26,900 nt of DNA. Source: a virus. Below, one piece after another: positions 1 through 16,743 of this stretch. A program made the translations under genes and the position numbers. Position 1 is the first letter of the stretch, and each line of letters starts with the position of its first letter. The notes beneath the pieces are model-generated. The model saw nothing but the letters and a program-made list of their open reading frames with translations, searched no databases and had not been told where the DNA came from. The stretch covers positions 1 through 26,900 of the IMG/VR virus record IMGVR_UViG_3300010354_000516; one strand, written 5' to 3'.

Positions 1-200
1 TATGGGTAAACGACCAAATAAACCTTGGCACAGACACGGTTGGAAGTTATGTAGAGTCACTTGTCGCCGGCACTGGGATAACGCTCAGCAATAACTCGGG
101 CGAAGGCGCTACGCCAACAGTTGCAGTAACATCTAACACATACGACGCATATAACTCGTCCAGAAATGTAGAAATAAAACTCTTGATGGAGGTCATGTAA
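1..200 (+). CDS. C-terminal end of a tail-fibre-like protein (5' truncated by window edge)
   Basis: An open frame enters from the left edge (first full codon at base 3) and ends at the TAA at 198-200. About 65 residues are visible. They contain the segments DTVGSYVESLVAGTGITL and EGATPTVAV. This pattern (DTVG.YV..L.AGTGIT....GEG.TPT.AV) recurs in fibre and other structural proteins of aquatic phages and has the alternating small/polar look of beta-structured fibre shafts. The stop codon overlaps the start of the next gene (TAATG), so translation is probably coupled. The gene lies directly upstream of the adhesin-like genes, which supports a fibre role. The N-terminal part and true length are outside the window. 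Confidence 0.7.
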   Translation, partial: WVNDQINLGTDTVGSYVESLVAGTGITLSNNSGEGATPTVAVTSNTYDAYNSSRNVEIKLLMEVM

Positions 201-532
201 TGGCATTGACGCAAAAAAGACTATTCGGCCCAGCTGCAGCTGTTACCTCTGCAACAGACGATGCAACCGGGAGATACCTTGTACCGTCGTCCACCACAAC
301 AATCGTAAAACAAATTATATTTTGCAATACAGCTGCAAGCGCTGCAACTGTAAGGGCCGGTGTTGGAACTACGGCAACCGCAGCCAACAGGGTGATTTCC
401 GACTTGACATTAGCCGCGAATGAGACTGTGTCATTTAACTGCTCATTGGTAATGACAGCAGGCGAAAAATTATTTTTTACAGCCAATGCTACAACGGTAT
501 CAATAACCGCAAATGGCATCGAGGAGACCTGA
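200..532 (+). CDS. Small beta-rich virion-associated protein, unknown function
   Basis: This 110-aa protein starts at an ATG overlapping the previous stop (TAATG) and ends in a TGA that overlaps the next ATG (ATGA), so it is translationally coupled on both sides. It is rich in Thr, Ala and Val with alternating hydrophobic residues, including VKQIIFCNTAASAATVRAGV near residues 36-55 and LTLAANETVSFNCSLVMTAG later. This resembles the single beta-sandwich accessory proteins of phage tails, but I cannot assign a named family. There is no signal peptide or membrane segment. Its position between a fibre end and two adhesin-like proteins suggests a fibre or adhesin accessory. A plain hypothetical protein remains possible. 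A reverse-strand frame over the same bases looks like a shadow because its translation is low in complexity and lacks coupling. Confidence 0.75.
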   Translation: MALTQKRLFGPAAAVTSATDDATGRYLVPSSTTTIVKQIIFCNTAASAATVRAGVGTTATAANRVISDLTLAANETVSFNCSLVMTAGEKLFFTANATTVSITANGIEET

Positions 533-1245
533 TGAGTGGAATATCTCGTTATCCGGCTGCAAACGCATTTGCTTCGTTTTCTGATGCGCCTGATTCTGTT
601 TATGGGACAGGCATGGATGGTGATGCGACATTAGACGGCTCTACGACCGTTCTTGGTATGGCGCCATCATCAAGTGTGTACACGATGACAAAAGATTTAT
701 ATTTTGATGACCTAACAATAAATGCAAGTGTTCGTTTAAACCCAGCCGGTTATAGAATATTTGTAAAAAACGTACTGACATTTGCAGGAAATAACGCAAC
801 AATAGGTTTTACGACAGGGTTTTCAACCGCTGGCTCAATTTATCAAGGGGGGGCGGCAGCAACTGCCGTCACACATTCACTCGGCGGTTCTGCGACTGGA
901 TACACGGCCACAGCACCAACAGCAGCTATGGGTGGAACAGAATATTTCAAAGTTCCCCAGCAGGCAATAACTGGCTATTCACTAACCGCTTCCGGTGGAC
1001 CAACATGGCTTAGGGGTGGCGCTGGCGGCTCGGGGCAAGCTGGGGGAGGGGTTGTTATTCTCGCTGCTCGTTATATTTCTGGCCCTGCTTCTGGAAACAC
1101 TGGATACATAAAAGCGCCAGCAACTGCTCCTGCTGGTGGTGGTGTAATCATAATAGTTTCCACCGGAGCAGCGTTACCTGCAACCGTATCAACAGACGTT
1201 ACTGGTCAAAATGCAGGAACAGTAAATTACATACAGTTGGTGTGA
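532..1245 (+). CDS. Gly-rich adhesin-like tail protein (paralogue A)
   Basis: A 237-aa protein whose ATG overlaps the previous TGA. The N-terminal ~90 residues carry VYGTGMDGDATLDG, then a YFDDLTI strand and YRIFVKNVLTF. The next gene repeats the same order of motifs (VYGTGSDGD, YYNNLTV, FRIFVKNTATI), so the two are tandem paralogues. The C-terminal half is Gly-rich (LRGGAGGSGQAGGGVVILAA) and ends with a GGGVIIIVST strand. This organisation, a beta-helix-like start followed by Gly-rich loops and hydrophobic strands, recalls phage fibre-tip adhesins that use polyglycine segments. It lacks the His-rich insertion and most collagen-like triplets of its neighbour. Receptor binding is inferred from composition and position; no catalytic motif is seen. 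Confidence 0.75.
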   Translation: MSGISRYPAANAFASFSDAPDSVYGTGMDGDATLDGSTTVLGMAPSSSVYTMTKDLYFDDLTINASVRLNPAGYRIFVKNVLTFAGNNATIGFTTGFSTAGSIYQGGAAATAVTHSLGGSATGYTATAPTAAMGGTEYFKVPQQAITGYSLTASGGPTWLRGGAGGSGQAGGGVVILAARYISGPASGNTGYIKAPATAPAGGGVIIIVSTGAALPATVSTDVTGQNAGTVNYIQLV

Positions 1246-1246
1246 T

Positions 1247-2584
1247 ATGTCTGGTGTTGATAGGTATGGTTCGCCAACAAGAACACAAAGAAAAGGAAAT
1301 GACTGGGTATACGGAACTGGCTCTGATGGCGATGTAACCATAAGTGGAACAGTGACACTTACCTCGGATAAATACTATAACAATCTTACTGTTCCGCTCG
1401 GAAATATTCTTTTAACAAACGGATTCAGGATTTTTGTAAAAAATACAGCAACAATAAATGGGGTTGTTGGGATAGGAAAAGTAACCGGGAACATAGATGG
1501 CTCGACCAATGGAACCATATCATCACCAGATTCAGCAGTTAATTGGGGAACCGTTGCTGGTCATGTATCGGCAACAATTTCATATCGTACTGGTGGAATG
1601 GGTGGTGGCTCTGTAAGACCTAGTAGTCCACCTGTTCTTCCAGAATATATTGTCAAAAGAATCGCATCTCTAAGTGGCATATATCTAGATGCATCATATG
1701 GAGATATAACACCAGTCCCAATATATGGTGGAGTGAGTGGAACATATGGTTCTTCTGGAACGCCAGCAACTTCATATACAAATTCAAGTCCTGCTCCGGC
1801 TGGATTTACAAACACTTGGCCGAATAAATCCGGTTCGGCGGGTTCAGCTGGTTCAGCTGGTTCAGCTGGTTCATGGCCCCCAAACGCACATACTGTTGGT
1901 GCTGCTGGTGGGCGTGGATATACGGGGGCAACCGGTGGCACTGGAACAAATGGAAGTGCACCGAATCCACCTATCGCTGCAACTGGCGGAGTAGGGGGGG
2001 ACGGAGCACCCGGCGGTGGCATTGTTGCTATTATGGCTAAAACAATTACTGGCACAGGGACTATTATGTCTCTTGGCATGATTGGAAGCAGTGGCTCCGC
2101 TGGCACAACATCTCCGGCCGGACCAAATGGTACGCCCGGTGCAACTGGTGCAACCGGGGCAGCCGCTCCAGGCTATACCGACCACCACCATCATTCGGCC
2201 ACAATCCATGAACCGCATACATGCTGCGGTGGCCATGCTCATGACCCCGGTTCTTATCATAAACACGTATACGTTCCACCATCGCACCACACTCACCACC
2301 ACAATCATTCCGCCGTAATACACGCCCCGTGCTGCACGCCGGGTCCACATTATCCCGGCGGAGCAGGTGGGGCCGGCGGAGCGGGTGGGGCTGGCGGAAC
2401 TGGCTCTCCCGCTGTAACGGGTGGAACAGGGAAAAGGGGTGGAGCTGGTGGCGGAGGGGCCATAATCATAATTACAGAGACAACTCCGGCAAATCTAAAC
2501 TATGACGTACGGTCTGGAACAACTGCTGACTCTGATACGTTTTCAGCATCAGATGGCTCAACATATATAATATTGAATTCTTAG
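1247..2584 (+). CDS. Large Gly-rich adhesin-like protein with collagen-like runs and a His/Cys-rich insertion (paralogue B)
   Basis: A 445-aa protein starting one base after the previous stop. Residues 1-70 share the VYGTG.DGD / NNLTV / RIFVKN framework of the upstream paralogue. Residues 196-209 are tandem Gly-Ser-Ala triplets. Residues about 215-265 and 280-309 contain Gly-X-Y runs such as GTPGATGATGAAAPG (295-309). Residues 313-368 form a segment with 18 His and 4 Cys in 56 residues, made of two related halves (HSATIHEPHTCC and HSAVIHAPCC). Residues 371-387 are Gly-Gly-Ala repeats, followed by a C-terminal GGGGAIIIITET strand. Low complexity, tip-like strands and position suggest a receptor-binding adhesin, perhaps metal-stabilised. 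No enzyme motif is present. A non-fibre decorating protein cannot be excluded. Confidence 0.75.
   Translation: MSGVDRYGSPTRTQRKGNDWVYGTGSDGDVTISGTVTLTSDKYYNNLTVPLGNILLTNGFRIFVKNTATINGVVGIGKVTGNIDGSTNGTISSPDSAVNWGTVAGHVSATISYRTGGMGGGSVRPSSPPVLPEYIVKRIASLSGIYLDASYGDITPVPIYGGVSGTYGSSGTPATSYTNSSPAPAGFTNTWPNKSGSAGSAGSAGSAGSWPPNAHTVGAAGGRGYTGATGGTGTNGSAPNPPIAATGGVGGDGAPGGGIVAIMAKTITGTGTIMSLGMIGSSGSAGTTSPAGPNGTPGATGATGAAAPGYTDHHHHSATIHEPHTCCGGHAHDPGSYHKHVYVPPSHHTHHHNHSAVIHAPCCTPGPHYPGGAGGAGGAGGAGGTGSPAVTGGTGKRGGAGGGGAIIIITETTPANLNYDVRSGTTADSDTFSASDGSTYIILNS
1832..1873 (+). repeat. Tandem 9-bp repeat coding Gly-Ser-Ala triplets
   Basis: One diverged unit (1832-1840) is followed by three exact copies of GGTTCAGCT (1841-1867) and a partial fourth (1868-1873). 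The repeat stays in frame inside the adhesin gene, so slippage would change protein length in steps of three residues without breaking the frame. Confidence 0.85.
2351..2401 (+). repeat. Degenerate Gly/Ala-coding tandem repeat
   Basis: A run of near-identical 9-bp units of the type GGCGGAGCR / GGTGGGGCC encodes consecutive Gly-Gly-Ala triplets just after the His-rich segment of the adhesin-like gene. It is markedly GC-richer than the surrounding AT-rich DNA. Confidence 0.7.
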
Positions 2585-2593: not shown

Positions 2594-2836
2594 ATGGGAA
2601 TTTTTGACAATATCGACAATAGTGAAAAAAGAAGAATAGTAGACATTGAGCTGTCTACTGCAAAAGTCCATCTTTATGGTCTATTAATACAGATAGGTAT
2701 TGACCCGGACTCTTTTAACCACGACGAGTGGTCTGAACCGATAGATATGGGCGGAGAACCAAGAGGTAGGGTTAAGCACTATATTGACCTAATTGCCACA
2801 CTTGAAGAAAAAAGAGCTGCACTAACCAATGAATAG
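2594..2836 (+). CDS. Small hypothetical protein
   Basis: An 80-aa acidic protein with a clear AGGAG ribosome binding site. I do not recognise it. It appears mainly helical: an N-terminal amphipathic stretch (SEKRRIVDIELSTAKVHLYGLL), a loop with Trp and Asp (DEWSEP), then a second helix (HYIDLIATLEEKRAAL). There is no Cys, signal peptide or membrane segment. Its last 8 bases overlap the next gene, so the two are co-translated. The position between adhesins and the oxygenase gives no firm function. A small chaperone or assembly factor for the upstream adhesins would fit, but this is speculation. Confidence 0.65.
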   Translation: MGIFDNIDNSEKRRIVDIELSTAKVHLYGLLIQIGIDPDSFNHDEWSEPIDMGGEPRGRVKHYIDLIATLEEKRAALTNE

Positions 2837-3227
2837 ATATATCGCCGTTCCATCGGCGATGTGTATAGATGGAAAAATTCCAAGTGAGGCTATTAGGTTA
2901 GCCGGCATCCTATCTATAGAAATTAAAACAATTGATGATTGCGATGTTGTTCATGTTGCAAATGAACCATCGATAAGGCAAGTGTCGTACTCTCCCGTAT
3001 ATTCAATCGGAAAAATTTGGGACCTAGATATAGTTGATGAATTTTTAGATATGACCACTGGTGTCAAACTGTTAATTGACGGACAAGAATACGAACCTAA
3101 AGTGCAGGAGCGTCATGCTGCAAAATTCAGGATTAGACTGCATTGCGGGGGAAAAAAACAAATATTTTTAGTTGCCCAAAATGAGCAATCTATGATTGCG
3201 GAAATAGAGGAAAATCGTGAAAGTTGA
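2829..3227 (+). CDS. Hypothetical protein
   Basis: A 132-aa protein starting at an ATG inside the end of the previous gene and ending at a TGA that lies 11 bases inside the oxygenase gene. The sequence mixes beta-like segments (IEIKTIDDCDVVHVAN, GVKLLIDGQEYEP, KFRIRLHCGGKKQIFLVAQ) with an acidic C-terminal helix. I recognise no family and see no catalytic or metal motif. The tight overlaps place it in the same translational unit as the 2OG oxygenase. Confidence 0.65.
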   Translation: MNRYIAVPSAMCIDGKIPSEAIRLAGILSIEIKTIDDCDVVHVANEPSIRQVSYSPVYSIGKIWDLDIVDEFLDMTTGVKLLIDGQEYEPKVQERHAAKFRIRLHCGGKKQIFLVAQNEQSMIAEIEENRES

Positions 3228-3783
3228 AGAACTTGCTACGTGTATAAATTTGTATAGCGAAGTTTTTGAACCTTTTGAATTTATGCACGAGGTTAACCAA
3301 GATTTAGATAACGAATGGTCAGAAGTTCAGTGGGTGCCATCATCAACAGGTATCGGTGTGGTTGGAAACCATAGGACATCTGCCGAAGTTGACATATCGC
3401 ACCTGGAGCACATGGACACATCTATGGCAAAAAAATTCAAGCCAATATCAAAAACTCTTCTTGCTGATGTAGTTGAAGATTACAAAAAAGAATTCATGGT
3501 TCAGTCATCCAGGTACGAGGGATGGAGATTGCTTAAATATCACGGAGGCGGTGAGTATCATGCACACTACGACCATGCTCCGCACAATGAGAGAATCTTT
3601 AGCATCGTCGCTTTCATGGAAACGCCAGACGGTGGTGGGCAGCTTGAGTTCCCATTTTTTGGTGTGACAGTTGAGGCAGTTGCCGGTAGTGCGGTCGTGT
3701 TTCCGGCCAATTTTCCATACCTACACATAGCCCACCCCGTAACATCCGGAACAAAGTGCAGTTTAGTGACATGGTTCAAGTAA
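3217..3783 (+). CDS. 2-oxoglutarate/Fe(II)-dependent oxygenase, prolyl-4-hydroxylase-like
   Basis: A 188-aa enzyme starting at a GTG preceded by GAGG at 3207-3210. The double-stranded beta-helix signature is complete. The facial triad is H117-Y118-D119 and H170, within HIAHPVTSGTK, and K180 sits where family members carry the Arg/Lys that binds the 2OG carboxylate. The segments GGGQLEFPFFG and GSAVVFPAN match the usual core strands leading to the distal His. Family enzymes hydroxylate Pro, Lys or other residues, or small molecules, using O2, 2OG and Fe(II). Such genes are common in aquatic phages, where substrates are mostly unknown. Here it sits downstream of a collagen-like adhesin and upstream of a halogenase, overlapping its neighbours. 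The family call is strong; the substrate is unknown. Confidence 0.88.
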   Translation: MKVEELATCINLYSEVFEPFEFMHEVNQDLDNEWSEVQWVPSSTGIGVVGNHRTSAEVDISHLEHMDTSMAKKFKPISKTLLADVVEDYKKEFMVQSSRYEGWRLLKYHGGGEYHAHYDHAPHNERIFSIVAFMETPDGGGQLEFPFFGVTVEAVAGSAVVFPANFPYLHIAHPVTSGTKCSLVTWFK

Positions 3784-4919
3784 AAAATATAAGCCAGCTG
3801 AATATTGAAGAACAAAACTATTTTGGTTTTGTAGGGTACCATTCTGCAGAAATAACCATTACAGCCCTGGCCCCTGATGGTGAATTTGAGTATTTAGATT
3901 TTGAGGCGTACAGCCACACACAGGGAACACTAATTAAATTTAATAAACTTCCAGAGTTTGGCTACACCCCATGGTCAATGAAAATAATTGGCTCTAGCGG
4001 AGAAGAGGAGCCGATGCAATGGGTCAATTATGAGGATAGTTTTGATATCTGGGAAAACAGAGAAACAGAGCCACATTCCTTTCTTTCCTTTATGAAATCA
4101 CAAGATATGCGCGCAACGCTTAATCACAGAGTTGTTGACGTATCTCGCAGGTGCGATAGCAATATGTTTGGTCCAGCCGTGGGTTATTTTCCTCAAGATG
4201 GAATAAAACCAACTTCAATGGACCTAGAGGTCATAAAAAATTACAACGCTGCTCTTTTTAGGCCAGTAGTAAACGTATCCGGCATAGCACACATCACAAA
4301 TATTAATTTTCGTGGAATAGGAATGACGTGGAGAAATTGGCCAATAGTTACCCTATCTGCCAAAACTTTGTCTGGGTGTCTCCGCCAGGTTATTGAATGG
4401 CGTGACCTGCGGGTGGCCGGTTTATCCAATGACCAAATCGCTATTGATGCTTTGAACTTTGTTGAGCAATTAAAAATAACCCAGGAAATGATTGATGAGC
4501 TAAAACAGACTGAAGTGAGAATGCCGGTAGAAAGATTTATGCTCGGTTATGGCAACCCGCGTCACGGTTTTTCCGAGACAGGAATTCTGCCAGAGAGCAT
4601 CAAAGCGCTGTTTGCAAAACAGGTGGTCTATAGAACGCTTTCAACATTGGAAACCAAACACCCACTTCACCCGCAATTTAGTTCAGAAATCAAAACTACT
4701 GAAAAACAAAGACAGCAAAATTATATAATTGAATTCGTTTCAAAAGTGATGCCGGGCACTATCAGCGTGGAACAGATAACAGTTGAAGACATATATAGAG
4801 AAGTGTTCAGACAACGTTATAAAGATGAACCAAATGGTCGTGGACCAATTCATCCCGTAGATATGAATATAACGGAAAAAGCAGTATTGGCCGCGAGGTT
4901 CTTTGATGCTCAACAATAA
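3756..4919 (+). CDS. Unknown 387-aa protein between oxygenase and halogenase
   Basis: The long frame begins at GTG 3756 (weak GGA upstream) or at ATG 3771, both inside the end of the oxygenase gene. The stop at 4919 lies 14 bases inside the halogenase gene. The N-terminal ~90 residues look beta-rich (GYHSAEITITALAPDGEFEY). The middle and C-terminal parts look helical, with conserved-looking blocks (FPQDGIKPTSMDLEVIKNYN, NINFRGIGMTWRNWPIV, MLGYGNPRHGFSETG). It is rich in Trp, Arg and Asn. I recognise no family, cofactor-binding loop or metal ligand set. Overlap on both sides with two redox enzymes makes a partner or carrier role plausible, but this is inference only. Confidence 0.75.
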   Translation: MQFSDMVQVKNISQLNIEEQNYFGFVGYHSAEITITALAPDGEFEYLDFEAYSHTQGTLIKFNKLPEFGYTPWSMKIIGSSGEEEPMQWVNYEDSFDIWENRETEPHSFLSFMKSQDMRATLNHRVVDVSRRCDSNMFGPAVGYFPQDGIKPTSMDLEVIKNYNAALFRPVVNVSGIAHITNINFRGIGMTWRNWPIVTLSAKTLSGCLRQVIEWRDLRVAGLSNDQIAIDALNFVEQLKITQEMIDELKQTEVRMPVERFMLGYGNPRHGFSETGILPESIKALFAKQVVYRTLSTLETKHPLHPQFSSEIKTTEKQRQQNYIIEFVSKVMPGTISVEQITVEDIYREVFRQRYKDEPNGRGPIHPVDMNITEKAVLAARFFDAQQ

Positions 4920-6387
4920 ACAGCTTTCTTTTTGTATTGTTGGTTCCGGTACTGCCGGTCTAATAACTTCAATTGTTTTAAGACAGGCATTCCCGTACTC
5001 CTCAATCAAAAATATATCGTCCAGTAAAATTGGAATTGTCGGAGTCGGAGAAGGAAGTACCGAGCATTGGCGAATGTTTATGGACAAATGCAATATAGGT
5101 ATCGAGGATTTGATTAAAAATACCGGAGCAACACATAAATACGGAATTCGTTTCGAAAATTGGACCAACAAAAGGCCCGATTATTTTCACAGCATTTCCG
5201 GAGTCGAAGAGATTAATACATGGGGAATTATTGGAGAGTATCTCAGTTTCATAGAACAGGACAAATCCATAACAAGCCAAACTGGCTCCGTTGGTTTAAT
5301 AAAAAACAAGATAGTCAGAGATGGCTTGCATGGAAACACAAACCAATATCATTTTGATACATTTATGCTGAATGACTTTCTAACTGGTATTTGTTTCAGC
5401 AGGATGATTCAATTCTACGATGATGAAATAAAAAACATAAATTTGACCACCAGCGGATGTATAGAGTCTGCCGAGCTTGTATCAGGCTTGCGTGTTGAGG
5501 CTGATATTTGGATTGATGCAACTGGGTTTAAACGGGAATTGATGAATAGGCTTAATAACAAGAGCTGGCAGTCTTTCTCAAATTATTTACTTGTTGATTC
5601 AGCTATTGCATTCCCGACTGAACACGATAAAAGTGGAACAATAAAACCATATACCAGAGCGCGGGCTGCTGGAAGTGGGTGGATGTGGGAAATTCCCACA
5701 CAAAATAGACGCGGAAACGGTTATGTTTACTCATCCTCACACATAAGTGGGGACGCTGCATTGCTAGAGGCGCAGTCGATGTCCGGCTTCGCTGTTCCAC
5801 AGATACGTCAATTTAAATTTGACCCCGGTTATTACAGGGAGCAATGGCAAAAAAACTGCGTTAGCGTCGGTCTTGCTTCCTCGTTTGTTGAACCACTGGA
5901 GGCAACCAGCATAGGAAGCACAATAATCCAGGCAATGAATATTGCTCAATACTCTGCGTCGTACATTCCCGGTTGTGAAAAACTTGTATCAGACTATAAC
6001 AAAAAAATGGAAGCAGTCATGCTTAATATTAGGGACATGATACGACTCCATTATATTTCTGATAGAAAAGACACTGAATTCTGGAAAGATGCAAACTCAA
6101 TGCCGATACCGGATTCTTTGCAAAACTTGCTAGACGCATGGAGTGAAAGACCTCCTGCGCATTCAGATATAGCAAACAACGGCTCAATTATGTTCTTAAC
6201 CCGCCACTTTGTCCATGTTGCCCAGGGTCAAAATTTAATTGCTACGGAGCCTAGCTCTCTCGTAATGGACAGAATGGCCATAAGAAGTTTCATAGAAAAA
6301 AAGTCAGACAATATTCGGTCGAGTAGATATTCAAAAGAGTTGGTTGACCACAAAGAAGCGTTAATGGAGACAGTCGGTGAAGATTAA
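4906..6387 (+). CDS. Flavin-dependent halogenase (tryptophan halogenase family)
   Basis: A 493-aa protein from ATG 4906 (GAGG at 4895-4898; TTG 4903 is possible). Close to the N-terminus is the FAD-binding loop GSGTAG, followed by GVGEGST. The diagnostic halogenase motif WxWxIP is present as WMWEIP (W259, W261). K78 in THKYGIRFENW aligns with the catalytic Lys79 of PrnA, and E332 in EPLEAT aligns with Glu346. The Ser that follows that Glu in PrnA is Ala here. Length matches the family (~500-540 aa). These enzymes use FADH2, O2 and halide to form HOX, which the Lys directs to an aromatic substrate. A cyanophage member, VirX1, is known to iodinate diverse substrates. No flavin reductase is encoded here, so reduced flavin would come from the host. 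Substrate and halide preference cannot be read from the sequence. Confidence 0.92.
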   Translation: MLNNKQLSFCIVGSGTAGLITSIVLRQAFPYSSIKNISSSKIGIVGVGEGSTEHWRMFMDKCNIGIEDLIKNTGATHKYGIRFENWTNKRPDYFHSISGVEEINTWGIIGEYLSFIEQDKSITSQTGSVGLIKNKIVRDGLHGNTNQYHFDTFMLNDFLTGICFSRMIQFYDDEIKNINLTTSGCIESAELVSGLRVEADIWIDATGFKRELMNRLNNKSWQSFSNYLLVDSAIAFPTEHDKSGTIKPYTRARAAGSGWMWEIPTQNRRGNGYVYSSSHISGDAALLEAQSMSGFAVPQIRQFKFDPGYYREQWQKNCVSVGLASSFVEPLEATSIGSTIIQAMNIAQYSASYIPGCEKLVSDYNKKMEAVMLNIRDMIRLHYISDRKDTEFWKDANSMPIPDSLQNLLDAWSERPPAHSDIANNGSIMFLTRHFVHVAQGQNLIATEPSSLVMDRMAIRSFIEKKSDNIRSSRYSKELVDHKEALMETVGED

Positions 6388-7147
6388 AAATTTTAATCTG
6401 AATAAAATTAAAAAAGTAAAACCTGGAAATTTAAGAATTACAACAATAGACAACCGCTTTTACAACGATGTCCCGTTTGTTAATTCTAAAAAATCCCTAC
6501 CCAGATGGTTTAGAAGCATACATAAGGGGAATTTTTCAGTTAGGTCATGTTCAGGAATTTCTGATTTTTTGGAAATTGGAGCAACAATCCCAGCGTGGAC
6601 AAGTTTTAAGTTTACCCCAAATATAGAGAGCGGTTCATGGGACTGCGAGACTGGCTCGCTAAATCCAATGCCAACAGACTTTCAGATGCAGATGGTCAGC
6701 GGTTTTCCTTTTCATCAAACAGGTAGCTGCCCAATGACACACGCCAGGAAAATTGAAAAAATGGCTTATCCAAAATTGATAACCCCATGGAGAATCCAGA
6801 CTGCGCCAGGCTGGTCAATACTTGTGCTTCCAATTTATTACGAAGAAAACAGTGATTATTCAGTCTTGCCAGCAGTTGTCAATACGGACTATTACCAAAT
6901 CGTAAACATAGTTTTAAACGTAAAAACAGATGTTGAATTTTTAATACAACAGGGGACCCCATTGGCCCACATAATTCCAATTCAAAGGAAAAACGATATT
7001 AAAAACATTGAATGCATAGATGAAAAGTTTTATAAATATGCATCATCTGGAATGTATTTAACTGGCGGAATTTCTCCTGCCGGCAGCACTGGCCTTGCAT
7101 ACAGAAAAGCCGCAAAAATAGTTGATTCAGCAATCAACAAAGATTAA
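6377..7147 (+). CDS. Conserved phage protein of unknown function, downstream of halogenase
   Basis: A 256-aa protein starting at GTG 6377, with GGAG at 6366-6369, inside the end of the halogenase gene. From memory it resembles a family common in cyanophages and related viruses, with an N-terminal LP.WF block, a Cys followed by a D-hydrophobic turn (here RSCSGISDFLEIG), then PWRIQTAPGWSIL, a VVNTDYY-like segment (V/L-D/N-T-D-x-Y) and QQGTPLAHIIPIQR. The latter half is beta-rich, ending with AGSTGLAYRKA. The biochemical function of that family is not known to me. It is the last gene of the rightward operon, and its stop lies 6 bp from that of the opposing gene. Association with halogenase and oxygenase genes suggests a shared pathway, as inference. 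Confidence 0.75.
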   Translation: MKIKNFNLNKIKKVKPGNLRITTIDNRFYNDVPFVNSKKSLPRWFRSIHKGNFSVRSCSGISDFLEIGATIPAWTSFKFTPNIESGSWDCETGSLNPMPTDFQMQMVSGFPFHQTGSCPMTHARKIEKMAYPKLITPWRIQTAPGWSILVLPIYYEENSDYSVLPAVVNTDYYQIVNIVLNVKTDVEFLIQQGTPLAHIIPIQRKNDIKNIECIDEKFYKYASSGMYLTGGISPAGSTGLAYRKAAKIVDSAINKD

Positions 7148-7652: not shown

Positions 7653-8663
7653 CTATAGGACAACACACTGGTCGCCGCCAGTAACACGGTAGCCGCCAGT
7701 AACAGAACAATACTGTACATTAACAGGACCAAGAAGTTCACAACAACTATTACAAGGACCGGTTACGTAGCCTGTGCAGTCAGAACTTGTACTGTATAAC
7801 AATCCATAAATTGTGCCTTCAACATAAGGATGTGTTCCACCAGAAACCGGAACACATCCATAGTCAAACCAATTTGACCATGACCCCGAACAGCCACTTT
7901 GCGCCCCACACGAGACATCACATGGACCGTCGGCGCTGCCAGAACGTGTCCACTTGCTACAGACAGTCGATTTTGTACCACAACTGTCGCAACCACTAGC
8001 GTCGTAGTTTGTGCATGACGCAAGTGTCCACCCCGTAGCCGCGCTCGATTCTGCGGAGAAGGAACCACTGCCATTACTGTTTACCGCTGCGACAGTTACA
8101 CTCCAGTCGGAAGCGCTGTAATAGTGGCTTCTGGAGTAAGACCCGGTTGTATTCCCGGTTATTGTCTCTACGAGGGTCTCTGTACCCCTGTTGTTATAGA
8201 CCCGTATTGTGTATGAGGTTACCGCCGTCGGTGTCGTAATCCCAGAACCACTAGAACCGGTTCCAGACCCGAGCGCATTAACTGCACGCAATTTAATATT
8301 GTATAGAGTTGCGGCACTAAGATTTGATGATGAAGAGCTAACCGTTGTGATGGATACCGGCGATGAGGTTGTCCCCGAAGATTTCCACGTTGAGCCATTG
8401 TCGGTAGAATATTCATAATCAGTAATTGATAAGCCACCATTAAATGCAGGGGCTGTAAATGGTATTGAAATTGCCACACCGCCAGCACCCGGTGAACTCC
8501 ATGAAAAGGAGGCGCTATTGGCATCCTGACTCATCGATGGCGTAGAAACTGTATTCGGCGAGTTGATTGACGTCGCCAGGGTTCCGAGCGTTGGTGCGTC
8601 AGGGGTTGTCCCCCCTCCGAAATAGCCCCTAGAGGCCTGAGCCCTCGCTCCAAGGAAAGGCAT
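7653..8663 (-). CDS. Fibre-associated protein with FN3-like domains and a Cys-rich C-terminus
   Basis: A 336-aa protein in three parts. Residues 1-60 are Ser/Thr/Pro-rich, with SRGYFGGGTTPDAP near the start. Residues about 62-145 fit a fibronectin type III fold (ITDYEYSTDNGSTWKSSG, then LYNIKLRAVNALGSG), and 148-208 look like a second, diverged copy (YTIRVYNN, WSVTVAAVNSNGSGS). Residues 217-333 hold 14 cysteines, including GPCDVSCGAQSGC and CNSCC. FN3 domains are common carbohydrate- or surface-binding accessories in phage tails. The Cys-rich part is unusual and loosely recalls disulfide-rich thrombospondin-type repeats. The start ATG overlaps the stop of the upstream fibre gene (TAATG). Function is probably surface attachment. 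The FN3 assignment is moderate and the Cys-rich fold unknown. Confidence 0.75.
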   Translation of the reverse strand: MPFLGARAQASRGYFGGGTTPDAPTLGTLATSINSPNTVSTPSMSQDANSASFSWSSPGAGGVAISIPFTAPAFNGGLSITDYEYSTDNGSTWKSSGTTSSPVSITTVSSSSSNLSAATLYNIKLRAVNALGSGTGSSGSGITTPTAVTSYTIRVYNNRGTETLVETITGNTTGSYSRSHYYSASDWSVTVAAVNSNGSGSFSAESSAATGWTLASCTNYDASGCDSCGTKSTVCSKWTRSGSADGPCDVSCGAQSGCSGSWSNWFDYGCVPVSGGTHPYVEGTIYGLLYSTSSDCTGYVTGPCNSCCELLGPVNVQYCSVTGGYRVTGGDQCVVL

Positions 8664-13163: not shown

Positions 13164-14950
13164 ACTTCAGTACCCCCATACCACTGGCTGTCTTCAGCAC
13201 CGCCAAGATTTAGCTCAGGGTCTGCTAGTTCAGCTTTTGTTAAACGTTTCATTAAGATATGCCGTTGTTGCAGGTCTAGTAAAAACGTGTAATCGCGCGC
13301 ATTTATTATTGAGTTTGTACGGGTAGTTCCACGAACAACACCTAAATGTTTTCCAGGATTTAACCCTTCATACCCAGTCGAATCTTCAAAAAGGTTGATG
13401 ACTTCCGTAGCTGTTTTTTGAACAGCATTTGCACCTTCCGTCCAGATTGTAGGTAAAATTATTGTTAACCACTCTGAACCGCTCTCCACAGTGACGGTTA
13501 CCACCCCAAGGGTATTAAACGTAATAATCTTAGAAGAGCCAAGTCGTTGAGCAAGGACCGGGCGCTCATATAGATTTATGTTGCCTGTTACAACAACTGT
13601 TTCGTTTTCTAGTGTGCTGTCTTTGGCTGGCTTAACAGCTGCAATAATTTGAGATTTTTGGCGAGGAAACTGTTGTGTTAGGTTTGCAAACGGCATTGTC
13701 GGATATCTATATGGAAATTCGGCAGTTGGCAGGGGAATTAGTCTTCTGTCTAGCCCTGTATCTTTGTCAAACAAAACAGTAGATATTGTTTTTGACGTCA
13801 CCGGCGGTCGTGGTGTTATTAGTTGTGTATCTGTTATATAGGTTTGTTCATATGTTGAACCGATTGGTAAGTCTTTTATTTTTTCTTTTTCTAAATTTTT
13901 TTCTGGAGAACGAAATTCAATGCTCACCGGGTCGCCGGTTAATTCGTTAAAAGTTACCCCAGTGATTAAATAATAATCACTCATATTGGGTATACCGCCG
14001 ACATAGGCCGTCATGCCAGGCCTTAACTGTGTACCATTTACCCTCAACACAGTGCATGACCCATTGCCCGCATATGGGTCATTATCAGACTTTGTTATAT
14101 TTGGATACTCTGTTAACTCAAACGCACGCCCAAATTCATCTGGATTAATCAACGGTGCAAGCGGATTGCCGCCAACGGCCGCCCTGCTTCTTATTCCAGA
14201 AAATGTTAGATTTACGTATCTTAGATTTTTTCTAGTGGTTGTCTTTTTTTTGGTCTTTGAATTCACTGTTGTCTTTGTGTCAACAACTGAATTCGTCCCC
14301 CATTTGTGCATCAGCCATTTTTCAGAAGCAAAAACCAACACGCCATCAACTTCAAATAATACAAACTTCGCATCTGATGCAAGATTTTGCATCACGTCCC
14401 ACAGTGACTGAGCCTGTTTTGAGCCAGAAGATTTTGTTATTTGTTTTGCTTTCGCTGTATTTTCACCAAAAAATCTTAACCCGTATTTTGCTGCAGCAGC
14501 CTTGATGAAGGCTGTGCCATTTCCAGAAACAGAACCGGGCTGTCTGTCTCGTTTCATTTGCTGAATAGCCTTTGTATAACATTGAACTGAAAATGTTGGG
14601 CTTCCTCCAGGGCCCTGCGATACGCTAACTTTGGAAATCTCAAATAGTTGTTTTACGAATTGAACAGTTCCATCTCCAGAATCAATACGGCCTACGGCTT
14701 GCGTTTCGTAAATGACGTCACGCCCAATTACAAAATAATTATTTTTGGCAAACAATAAGTCTCTATCAATTATGTCAAATGAAAGCTCGGCGGCCATATC
14801 TATTGAGTAGCTAACAGATGCCTGGGTTATAAATTCAGTTATGTCATAGTTCGACGAACCAATTGTAGGGAGATTTGCAATTGATATTTTGCGCGCAAAT
14901 GGAGCCCTCTGTGCGATTGGTCCGTATTGACGAAAATCAACTTCAGCCAT
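13160..14950 (-). CDS. Baseplate hub protein (gpD/gp27-like)
   Basis: A 596-aa protein from ATG 14950, supported by GAGG at 14957-14960. TTG 14962 would overlap the upstream stop. The N-terminal region (NYDITEFITQASVSYSIDMAAELSFDIID) is the barrel-forming part of gpD/gp27 family hubs. It is followed by FVKQLFEISKVSVSQGPGG and the helical GTAFIKAAAAKYGL block, a hallmark of these hubs. The central part repeats the ring-forming strands (VLRVNGTQLRPGMTAYVGG, YYLITGVTFNELTGDPV). The C-terminal ~170 residues extend beyond the common hub core and may contact the tube or spike. It sits between the gpU-like tail protein and the OB-fold protein, as expected for a trimeric hub below the tube. Confidence 0.78.
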   Translation of the reverse strand: MAEVDFRQYGPIAQRAPFARKISIANLPTIGSSNYDITEFITQASVSYSIDMAAELSFDIIDRDLLFAKNNYFVIGRDVIYETQAVGRIDSGDGTVQFVKQLFEISKVSVSQGPGGSPTFSVQCYTKAIQQMKRDRQPGSVSGNGTAFIKAAAAKYGLRFFGENTAKAKQITKSSGSKQAQSLWDVMQNLASDAKFVLFEVDGVLVFASEKWLMHKWGTNSVVDTKTTVNSKTKKKTTTRKNLRYVNLTFSGIRSRAAVGGNPLAPLINPDEFGRAFELTEYPNITKSDNDPYAGNGSCTVLRVNGTQLRPGMTAYVGGIPNMSDYYLITGVTFNELTGDPVSIEFRSPEKNLEKEKIKDLPIGSTYEQTYITDTQLITPRPPVTSKTISTVLFDKDTGLDRRLIPLPTAEFPYRYPTMPFANLTQQFPRQKSQIIAAVKPAKDSTLENETVVVTGNINLYERPVLAQRLGSSKIITFNTLGVVTVTVESGSEWLTIILPTIWTEGANAVQKTATEVINLFEDSTGYEGLNPGKHLGVVRGTTRTNSIINARDYTFLLDLQQRHILMKRLTKAELADPELNLGGAEDSQWYGGTEV

Positions 14951-14956
14951 GTTGCG

Positions 14957-14960
14957 CCTC
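14957..14960 (-). promoter_or_regulatory. Ribosome binding site deciding the hub start
   Basis: GAGG on the minus strand, six bases before ATG 14950, overlapping the stop of the preceding gene; it favours 14950 over TTG 14962. Confidence 0.55.
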
Positions 14961-16743
14961 AATCACAGCTGTGCGGAACAGCTTTTTGTACCCATCTAGC
15001 GGGGTTTATCCATGTAAATCGAGCTTTACATAGCTGGTCCTCATTCGGCGTCTTTACCGGTGGGGTTTGGGGTGGCTGGGTTATCCGTGGTAAGAATATT
15101 GGCGCCGGACCAGTGTTATGCACTTCCTGCACCGTCATATTTACAGTAGCCCTGTTAATGGACCCGGCTGGTGCACCGAGTGTGACATTGTCAATGCCGG
15201 CCCTAGACCTCTGGACTGACGTTATTGACATATCAACAATTGCAAAATATGTTGCTTCGCCGCTCGACAAAAAGTCTGGATATGACAGCTGTTCGCTAAA
15301 CAGTGTATCGAGATTTGTAAATTGAACATATTCTGGACGAATAGCCATCTGTCGAAGCATCTTTAATTGAGCTTCGCATGATGCATAAAGGCTCGACACT
15401 CCATCTAATTTTTCTGCAACTATAAACTCGAAACTTATTTTCATCAATCTAAAATTTTTAAAATCAATGATTGGCGTATTATTGACGCGGTTTATGTCAG
15501 CCCATTCAGCGCCAATGTTTGAATATGTAACATTATTCGGTTTGTAGTGAAAATAAAATTTATCAGCAACGAACTCAAACGAGTCAACATTTTTATCGTA
15601 ATACGGATATGTCTGAATCATTATTGGCACGTCCGGAGCTGCCTGTGCTCCGGTATAGGCTTGACCAGAGTTGCTAAATCTAACCTGAATTGAAATTTCG
15701 CTTGGAGTAAATTCTCCCGCTTTTAGGGATGGTAAACCATCTTTAGCAATTATATTTTTAGGCTGACCGAATTCATCCAGTTCGCCACTCTGCATAAACG
15801 TGCCTGAATCGAATTGATTTTGTGTTTCAACGGCGGTTAGGTTGTAAATGGCTCTTTCATTCATACCTATTACTGTCGATATAGCCGCCTGTCTAGAAGA
15901 GCCATATCCGACCATTTCTTCAATCTGCCCATCAACTAGAGTTTCTAACGGAATGTCATCCTTGTCTCCATTGAATGTTGTAAATTTAGATTTTCCGGAG
16001 GATGGCGAGCTTGAGCCATCTTTTGTTATTCCTGCAGGATTAGTATTGTTTTGATTTTTTACAATTCCAACAGAAAGTTTTGACCACTGTGCAATCGGGA
16101 AAAAATTTGCTACGGCCTCTGCGTAAAAATATGGTGTCATATCTGCTGTTAATCCACCATCAGCGGTCATTTTTGCTTCATCCGCTGGTGTTATCCAAAT
16201 ACGCACTTTTGATGGGTCTAATCCGGAACCTGACTTTTGTTTTGCCCACGGCGGGTTTTTTGCCACTTCAGGTTTGCCAAGTATTGTGCAATACCTTGAC
16301 CAATCAAATTCATAAGATGTCGCTAGGTAATTAATTGTTCCAGCTCCGGAGCTATATCTATCTCCAGCTTTAGCGTATATTCCAATTGCATTGCGTTTGG
16401 CCTTCTCTGCATCTTTTTGTTGTCTATCTGCGCACCTGATTAAATCTTTTTCCGTATATGTAAGTTCTAGGCCCGATGTGTAAACTTCATAACCAACACA
16501 TTGTTTTTGAAATGTAAGCGCATACTGTCTTGTGGCTTCGTTTGTTGGAACGGTTGTCGTTGTTGCCCCACTTGGGACCCAGTACATTGTGTCGTCTACT
16601 TTGACAAATGTGGTCTGACCCTCAAAATTCTGCGCTTTATATTTTTTGTAAATTGGCAGATTTGCAAATCTTGACACCTCGGCCTCGCTTGATGTACGCG
16701 CACCGGTTGGAAGATAATAAATTTTTCCAGGTGTTGCTGGCAT
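14959..16743 (-). CDS. gpU-like tail-initiator protein with long N-terminal extension
   Basis: A 594-aa protein between tape measure and hub. The segment at about residues 395-480 (NNVTYSNIGAEWADINRVNN, then RLMKISFEFIVAEKLDG) resembles the gpU or tail-initiator fold, where a W..I.R motif is followed by an I.F.F.. strand. It continues with SSLYASCEAQLKMLRQMAI. The preceding ~380 residues do not belong to the short gpU family (~150 aa). They include a YYLPTG-type beta start, a Lys-rich helix (RCADRQQKDAEKAKRNAI) and a Ser/Gly linker. Near the C-terminus is a Pro-rich stretch (RITQPPQTPPVKTP). No catalytic motif is visible. The position fits a baseplate-proximal tail protein; the extension is unexplained. 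Confidence 0.6.
   Translation of the reverse strand: MPATPGKIYYLPTGARTSSEAEVSRFANLPIYKKYKAQNFEGQTTFVKVDDTMYWVPSGATTTTVPTNEATRQYALTFQKQCVGYEVYTSGLELTYTEKDLIRCADRQQKDAEKAKRNAIGIYAKAGDRYSSGAGTINYLATSYEFDWSRYCTILGKPEVAKNPPWAKQKSGSGLDPSKVRIWITPADEAKMTADGGLTADMTPYFYAEAVANFFPIAQWSKLSVGIVKNQNNTNPAGITKDGSSSPSSGKSKFTTFNGDKDDIPLETLVDGQIEEMVGYGSSRQAAISTVIGMNERAIYNLTAVETQNQFDSGTFMQSGELDEFGQPKNIIAKDGLPSLKAGEFTPSEISIQVRFSNSGQAYTGAQAAPDVPIMIQTYPYYDKNVDSFEFVADKFYFHYKPNNVTYSNIGAEWADINRVNNTPIIDFKNFRLMKISFEFIVAEKLDGVSSLYASCEAQLKMLRQMAIRPEYVQFTNLDTLFSEQLSYPDFLSSGEATYFAIVDMSITSVQRSRAGIDNVTLGAPAGSINRATVNMTVQEVHNTGPAPIFLPRITQPPQTPPVKTPNEDQLCKARFTWINPARWVQKAVPHSCD

Follow-up and report, generated by a model that had tools for sequence, protein, structure and literature searches.

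The Salmonella phage S16-type gp38 protein is a distal adhesin with a polyglycine-rich tip, in which glycine-rich tracts surround variable segments. Metal-binding histidines are described in the fibres of other phages. The iron-binding residues H929 and H931 of T4 gp37 are essential (PMC6957217, which also cites work on gp38), and HxH iron sites are reported in the fibre of Alteromonas phage R22Y, in a study that proposes HxH fibres for marine phages (PMC11705849). In animals, the preCols of the mussel byssus combine Gly-X-Y, glycine-rich and His-rich domains, the latter containing about 20 mol% His and coordinating Zn and other metals (PMC6477608). The Nereis jaw proteins Nvjp-1 and Nai11527 are Gly/His-rich and zinc-binding, and are reported to be probably halogenated and cross-linked (PMC13120676). 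Viruses also encode halogenases, such as VirX1 of cyanophage Syn10, a broad iodinase in vitro for which no biosynthetic cluster is listed (PMC8407142). Our literature search found no description of a phage protein like the one presented here, which is weak evidence given its partial journal coverage.

The window analysed here, i.e., the whole 26.9 kb stretch of a virus record, encodes a contractile-tail module and, on the opposite strand, a glycine-rich adhesin-like protein. Matches to fibre, baseplate, sheath and tube genes lie further along the window; the sheath is nearest to those of Gordonia myophages (~38-39% identity), with other matches in Arthrobacter, Brevibacterium and cyanophage records. 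Beside the tail genes, positions 7653-8663 (-) encode a 336-aa fibronectin-III protein with a strongly Cys-rich C-terminal part, possibly another surface protein. No Pfam family matches the adhesin above cut-off, and its one PHROG match is weak and of unannotated function; tblastn found no relatives in cultured phages, and comparison of sequence and fold with solved phage adhesins gave no match. Its PDB sequence hits (botulinum neurotoxin, CopN constructs and kinesin chimeras) were dismissed as linker, tag or low-complexity matches. A Pfam search for the tape measure in ten related records returned nothing useful. From its glycine-rich composition, its position among fibre genes and its domain layout, we infer that the adhesin sits at the fibre tip of the virion; roles in adhesion or receptor recognition and in metal binding are presumed.

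The adhesin carries a segment dense in His and Cys (Table 1). The residue count given by the initial annotation is exact: residues 313-368 apart, the protein contains just 2 His and lacks Cys, and 5000 shuffles reached at most 12 His plus Cys per 56-residue window, compared with the 22 observed. The two related halves that it recognised, marked by HSATIHEPHTCC at residue 316 and HSAVIHAPCC at residue 354, correspond to a 35-nt direct repeat with copies 77% identical and spaced by 114 nt. The sole tandem array within the segment is a minor 12-nt one (2285-2307, 1.9 copies). The multiple HxH motifs number seven in the adhesin, His runs included, and the His codons of the segment mix CAC and CAT. 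The Gly-rich repeats noticed on either side are a Gly-X-Y tract upstream and a (GGA)n tract downstream.

Table 1. Features of the adhesin gene and its neighbours in the window.
Feature	Coordinates	Strand	Remarks
110-aa protein (phrog_20100)	200..532	+	Upstream, often present among relatives
Adhesin paralogue	532..1245	+	Shorter, lacks the His segment; immediately precedes the adhesin gene in nearly all relatives
Glycine-rich fibre/adhesin-like protein	1247..2584	+	445 aa, carrier of the His segment
N-side Gly-X-Y tract	2075..2164	+	Before the His segment (residues ~277-306); proposed outgoing leg
35-nt direct repeat, copy 1	2181..2215	+	HHHHSATIHEP unit
His/Cys-dense segment	2183..2350	+	Residues 313-368; 18 His, 4 Cys in 56 residues
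35-nt direct repeat, copy 2	2295..2329	+	HHNHSAVIHAP unit
C-side (GGA)n tract	2357..2401	+	After the His segment (residues ~371-385); proposed returning leg
80-aa ORF	2594..2836	+	Downstream of adhesin; no family match
132-aa protein	2829..3227	+	Kept in many relatives
Predicted 2OG-Fe(II) oxygenase	3217..3783	+	Prolyl-4-hydroxylase type; HxD...H motif intact
387-aa cassette protein	3756..4919	+	
Putative flavin-dependent halogenase	4903..6387	+	Tryptophan-halogenase family; signature motifs intact
256-aa cassette protein (phrog_7084)	6377..7147	+	

The adhesin family is widespread among uncultured bacterial viruses. The segment is kept in all four close relatives (53-87% identity over the best segment), with differing numbers of the HSAxIHxP unit. 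In an alignment-based homologue scan, which retrieved 51 loci, the members sharing the C-terminal part carry a His-dense segment at the same place, made of other units (NGGHHHV/NPHHHT, SHPGNPF, SNHHFHQQ and DGHYHHPHNDGPHGG). Since the units differ while place and His density stay the same, composition and position are conserved and sequence is not. The duplication of one unit first suggested holds for the window subclade and fails elsewhere, other lineages being built from different repeat units. Likewise, the His part of the His/Cys density extends across the family, whereas Cys, ranging from several residues down to none, is confined to some lineages. Repeat units, length and Cys vary freely among lineages; His content does not. 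Loss of the segment or free variation of its His among homologues had been named as evidence against the metal-related reading; the segment proves to be kept throughout the cassette-bearing family, and its His do not vary freely. Two adhesins of the family (L028 6699-8579 and L123 2564-4693) contain an inserted stretch, which we take to resemble an Lcl/DUF1566-type domain. Relatives of the cassette or adhesin also occur on MAG-binned contigs (L055 and L056 in Gammaproteobacteria MAG SP183, L054 in a Phycisphaerae MAG); these are likely phage contigs or prophages and possibly hint at hosts.

A scan for the halogenase only, whose ascertainment is independent of the adhesin, retrieved 80 loci. 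A simple density threshold finds a His-rich protein in 60 of them, and individual reading brings in a further 12, whose proteins have 11-36 His in the corresponding place. Five loci (L077, L082, L091, L094 and L133) have no upstream DNA and were excluded as non-evaluable, so a His-enriched adhesin, with 11-75 His per protein, is present in 72 of the 75 evaluable loci. The remaining three (L118, L135 and L140) have upstream DNA without a related adhesin. Weakly His-rich lineages exist (11 His in L136, 13 in L107 and 8 in L055), and the upstream paralogue has no His segment and a median of 2 His. A Fisher test of His richness against halogenase presence was set aside, because most controls without halogenase end at contig ends and only about three retain 5 kb downstream.

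Anatomy, family-wide conservation and cassette are well supported. Along the cassette, the genes follow one another almost invariably as paralogue, adhesin, 2OG oxygenase, halogenase and phrog_7084 protein. By its matches, the oxygenase is of the prolyl-4-hydroxylase type (PF13640, E 1.3e-11), with an intact HxD...H iron triad and bacterial prolyl 4-hydroxylase 5hv0 as best PDB match (E 1.3e-5). The putative halogenase belongs to the flavin-dependent family (PF04820, E 3e-95), and the window copy has GxGxxG, the catalytic Lys, WxWxIP and EPLE. It matches solved enzymes of the tryptophan-halogenase family, including VirX1 and 6frl, which we take to be BrvH. Several loci (L033, L035, L036, L038 and L056) have two 2OG-oxygenase-like ORFs flanking or accompanying the cassette, rather than one. 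The 'ferrochelatase' family phrog_3531 matches the C-terminus of the window oxygenase, and proteins labelled 'ferrochelatase' in some cyanophage records (Sf-CH11 and HTVC008M were noted) may be misnamed oxygenases. Downstream of the cassette in L102, an ORF (13547-15460, +) with 31 His and collagen-like Gly-X-Y with proline at Y is possibly a second His-rich fibre.

Gly-X-Y is found in 49 of 52 adhesin members and GGX in 37 of 52, around the variable segment. In the adhesin Gly-X-Y tracts, Pro occurs 123 times at Y and 13 times at X, whereas in the remaining collagen-like ORFs of these loci it occurs 1341 times at X and 82 times at Y. In animal collagen, hydroxylation falls on Y, which makes the adhesin a plausible oxygenase substrate; the bias could alternatively stem from packing rules of glycine helices. 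In this scenario, the oxygenase would hydroxylate the Gly-X-Pro legs and the halogenase would halogenate His, Tyr or Trp of a metal-coordinating tip. Such enzymatic modification of the tip is the most tentative element of our account, a minority hypothesis that we consider improbable. The chances are evenly poised that the enzymes target something else (small molecules of host or phage, lipids or another protein), next to the adhesin through inherited linkage only. Consistent with such targets, a review treats the halogenases of viruses as auxiliary metabolic genes with metabolites as substrates (PMC10452541). In many cultured cyanophages a distant halogenase lies away from the fibre genes, and the synteny is not fully independent because all loci examined here are relatives. 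Yet the link persists from ~100% down to ~43% halogenase identity in 72 loci, and the proline-at-Y bias is specific to the adhesin. Moreover, some distant halogenases also have structural or glycine-rich fibre genes as neighbours and oxygenases close by: immediately upstream of the halogenase in Syn10 are two glycine-rich, mildly His-enriched proteins (7-8 His per 60 residues), and Sf-CH11 and S-SZBM1 group structural genes, oxygenases and halogenase together. A comparable arrangement is not annotated in P-SSM2, S-PM2, S-MbCM6, S-B64, S-SSM6a and S-SCSM2R; the halogenase-fibre link is therefore strong in the adhesin family and partial beyond it.

Selection on the segment was assessed with pairwise alignments in which His and Cys were masked, so that His could not steer its own placement. 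His changed at 18 of 204 aligned positions, compared with 84 of 369 for the other segment residues (odds ratio 0.33, p = 2e-5; eight pairs, with some dependence among them; those as close as the window and L003 have too few changes to be informative), and 68 silent His codon differences were counted. His is thus the most constrained residue class within the segment, and its density is under selection. Among 51 representatives below 70% identity, each with its maximal His segment, His makes up 28.2% of the segment and 1.6% of the remainder; Pro, Tyr, Gln and Asn are also enriched, and Ile, Leu, Met, Lys and Arg are scarce. Pairs of His are rarer than expected at lags 3-4 and enriched at lags 6-7, and the segment consists of short His clusters with a 6-7 residue period rather than of an HxH needle.

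The geometry of the flanking tracts suggests how the segment could be displayed. Their lengths covary (Pearson 0.74, n = 37), as do phylogenetic contrasts (rank correlation 0.77; a contrast coefficient of 0.95 is driven by short branches and should not stand alone), and L021 and L047 differ by 42 residues in both legs. The length of the His segment correlates with neither leg, and the whole pattern fits two paired legs joined by a His-bearing turn. The covariation is partly post hoc, since it is significant only under a second, later segment definition; an earlier, cruder measurement gave Pearson 0.02 and Spearman 0.32 (p = 0.06). The hairpin with a His turn is thus supported by indirect evidence. 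AlphaFold2 gives pLDDT below 50 for residues 309-370, without predicted strands in the His segment, is confident elsewhere only in parts, and reaches pLDDT 34 for the glycine domain alone. The polyglycine-II sandwich fold is absent from the structure matches listed for this partly confident model. Foldseek matches to collagen-like viral proteins (rmsd mostly >20 A) were given no weight, and VIA-align beta-solenoid matches (IcsA 3ml3, Z 6.2) were rejected as below the safe level.

Altogether, we favour, with moderate confidence, a distal tail-fibre adhesin of an uncultured myophage in which a beta-rich core bears Gly-X-Y and GGX tracts that would form the outgoing and returning arms of a hairpin, exposing the His-rich segment as the turn at its tip. 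Selection would maintain the high His density there while leaving exact sequence, length and Cys free. The persistence of the segment across the family and the constraint on His make metal binding a fair inference. By analogy with the His-rich parts of byssus and worm-jaw proteins, the most likely function of this putative metal-coordinating tip would be the polydentate coordination of transition metals (Zn, Cu, Ni or Fe), and the bound metal could stiffen or cross-link the tip or bridge it to the host surface.

It is also conceivable, if rather unlikely, that the tip is a metal-free surface for receptor binding or pH sensing, in which charged imidazoles bind acidic or sulphated glycans and the sequence varies under host selection. 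Hypervariable sequence and length at constant composition would fit such a surface, as would the enrichment and depletion described above, which resemble those of an exposed loop. However, a pure charge role could use Lys or Arg, both of which are depleted, and the CC pairs recurring in certain lineages, like the clustering of His at 6-7 residues, fit chelation at least equally.

A T4-like iron needle, in which HxH motifs from three chains hold Fe within an intertwined trimeric beta needle, finds some encouragement in the H-x-H motifs of the window adhesin and in the precedents of T4 gp37 and the marine phages. It is nevertheless very improbable, and is rejected because His spacing is not enriched in HxH: across the 51 representatives, lag-2 pairs are slightly below chance (418 observed vs 458 expected, z -2.7), and the preferred spacing lies at 6-7 residues. 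In addition, the context is rich in Gly, Pro and Asn, the segment is without predicted strands, and the PDB matches, from a sequence search only, include no gp37-type chain. Functionless low-complexity drift or codon slippage is scarcely tenable: repeats are present, their units duplicate and variable tracts are common in glycine-rich fibres, but His is conserved relative to the masked alignments amid silent codon change, position and composition are alike across 51 divergent members, and the paralogue lacks the segment.

If the metal-coordinating tip exists, viruses would be able to build the His-metal adhesive tips known from mussels and worms. The finding is also relevant to the debate over phage fibres as metal ligands in natural waters. 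Aquatic phages commonly encode halogenases and 2OG oxygenases, which are usually classed as metabolic and lack an assigned substrate; their conserved partner here, a fibre protein whose His-rich tip is under strong selection, is a concrete and testable candidate. If modification does occur, one group of viral halogenases would gain a native substrate, and the cassette would represent, in viruses, an equivalent of animal proteins that are sclerotised, halogenated and hardened by zinc.

Among phages, the nearest precedent for the adhesin is provided by the HxH iron sites of T4 gp37 and R22Y. All three have a His-dense fibre region, with proven or proposed metal coordination by His in the T4 tip and the R22Y fibre. 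Those fibres show regular HxH in a trimeric needle, whereas the window family has unenriched HxH, several-fold denser His and a glycine-rich carrier. The adhesin shares with S16-type gp38 the glycine-rich tracts bracketing variable segments; membership is not claimed. The variable segment here is constrained to be His-rich, an enzyme cassette is attached and neither a sequence nor a fold match was found. The putative window halogenase resembles VirX1 (6qgm) as a viral flavin enzyme of the same Pfam family, but the part in which they match is ~30% identical. As materials, the mussel preCols and the Nereis jaw protein come closest; they resemble the adhesin in composition and layout, with no claim of homology. 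The preCols share the Gly-X-Y, Gly-rich and His-rich layout as a functional analogy; they form a non-homologous animal extracellular fibre with terminal His domains, whereas that of the adhesin is proposed to lie at a hairpin turn. Nvjp-1, likewise a non-homologous animal protein, of the jaw, parallels the adhesin and its cassette in combining His/Gly richness with halogenation, which is putative for the adhesin.
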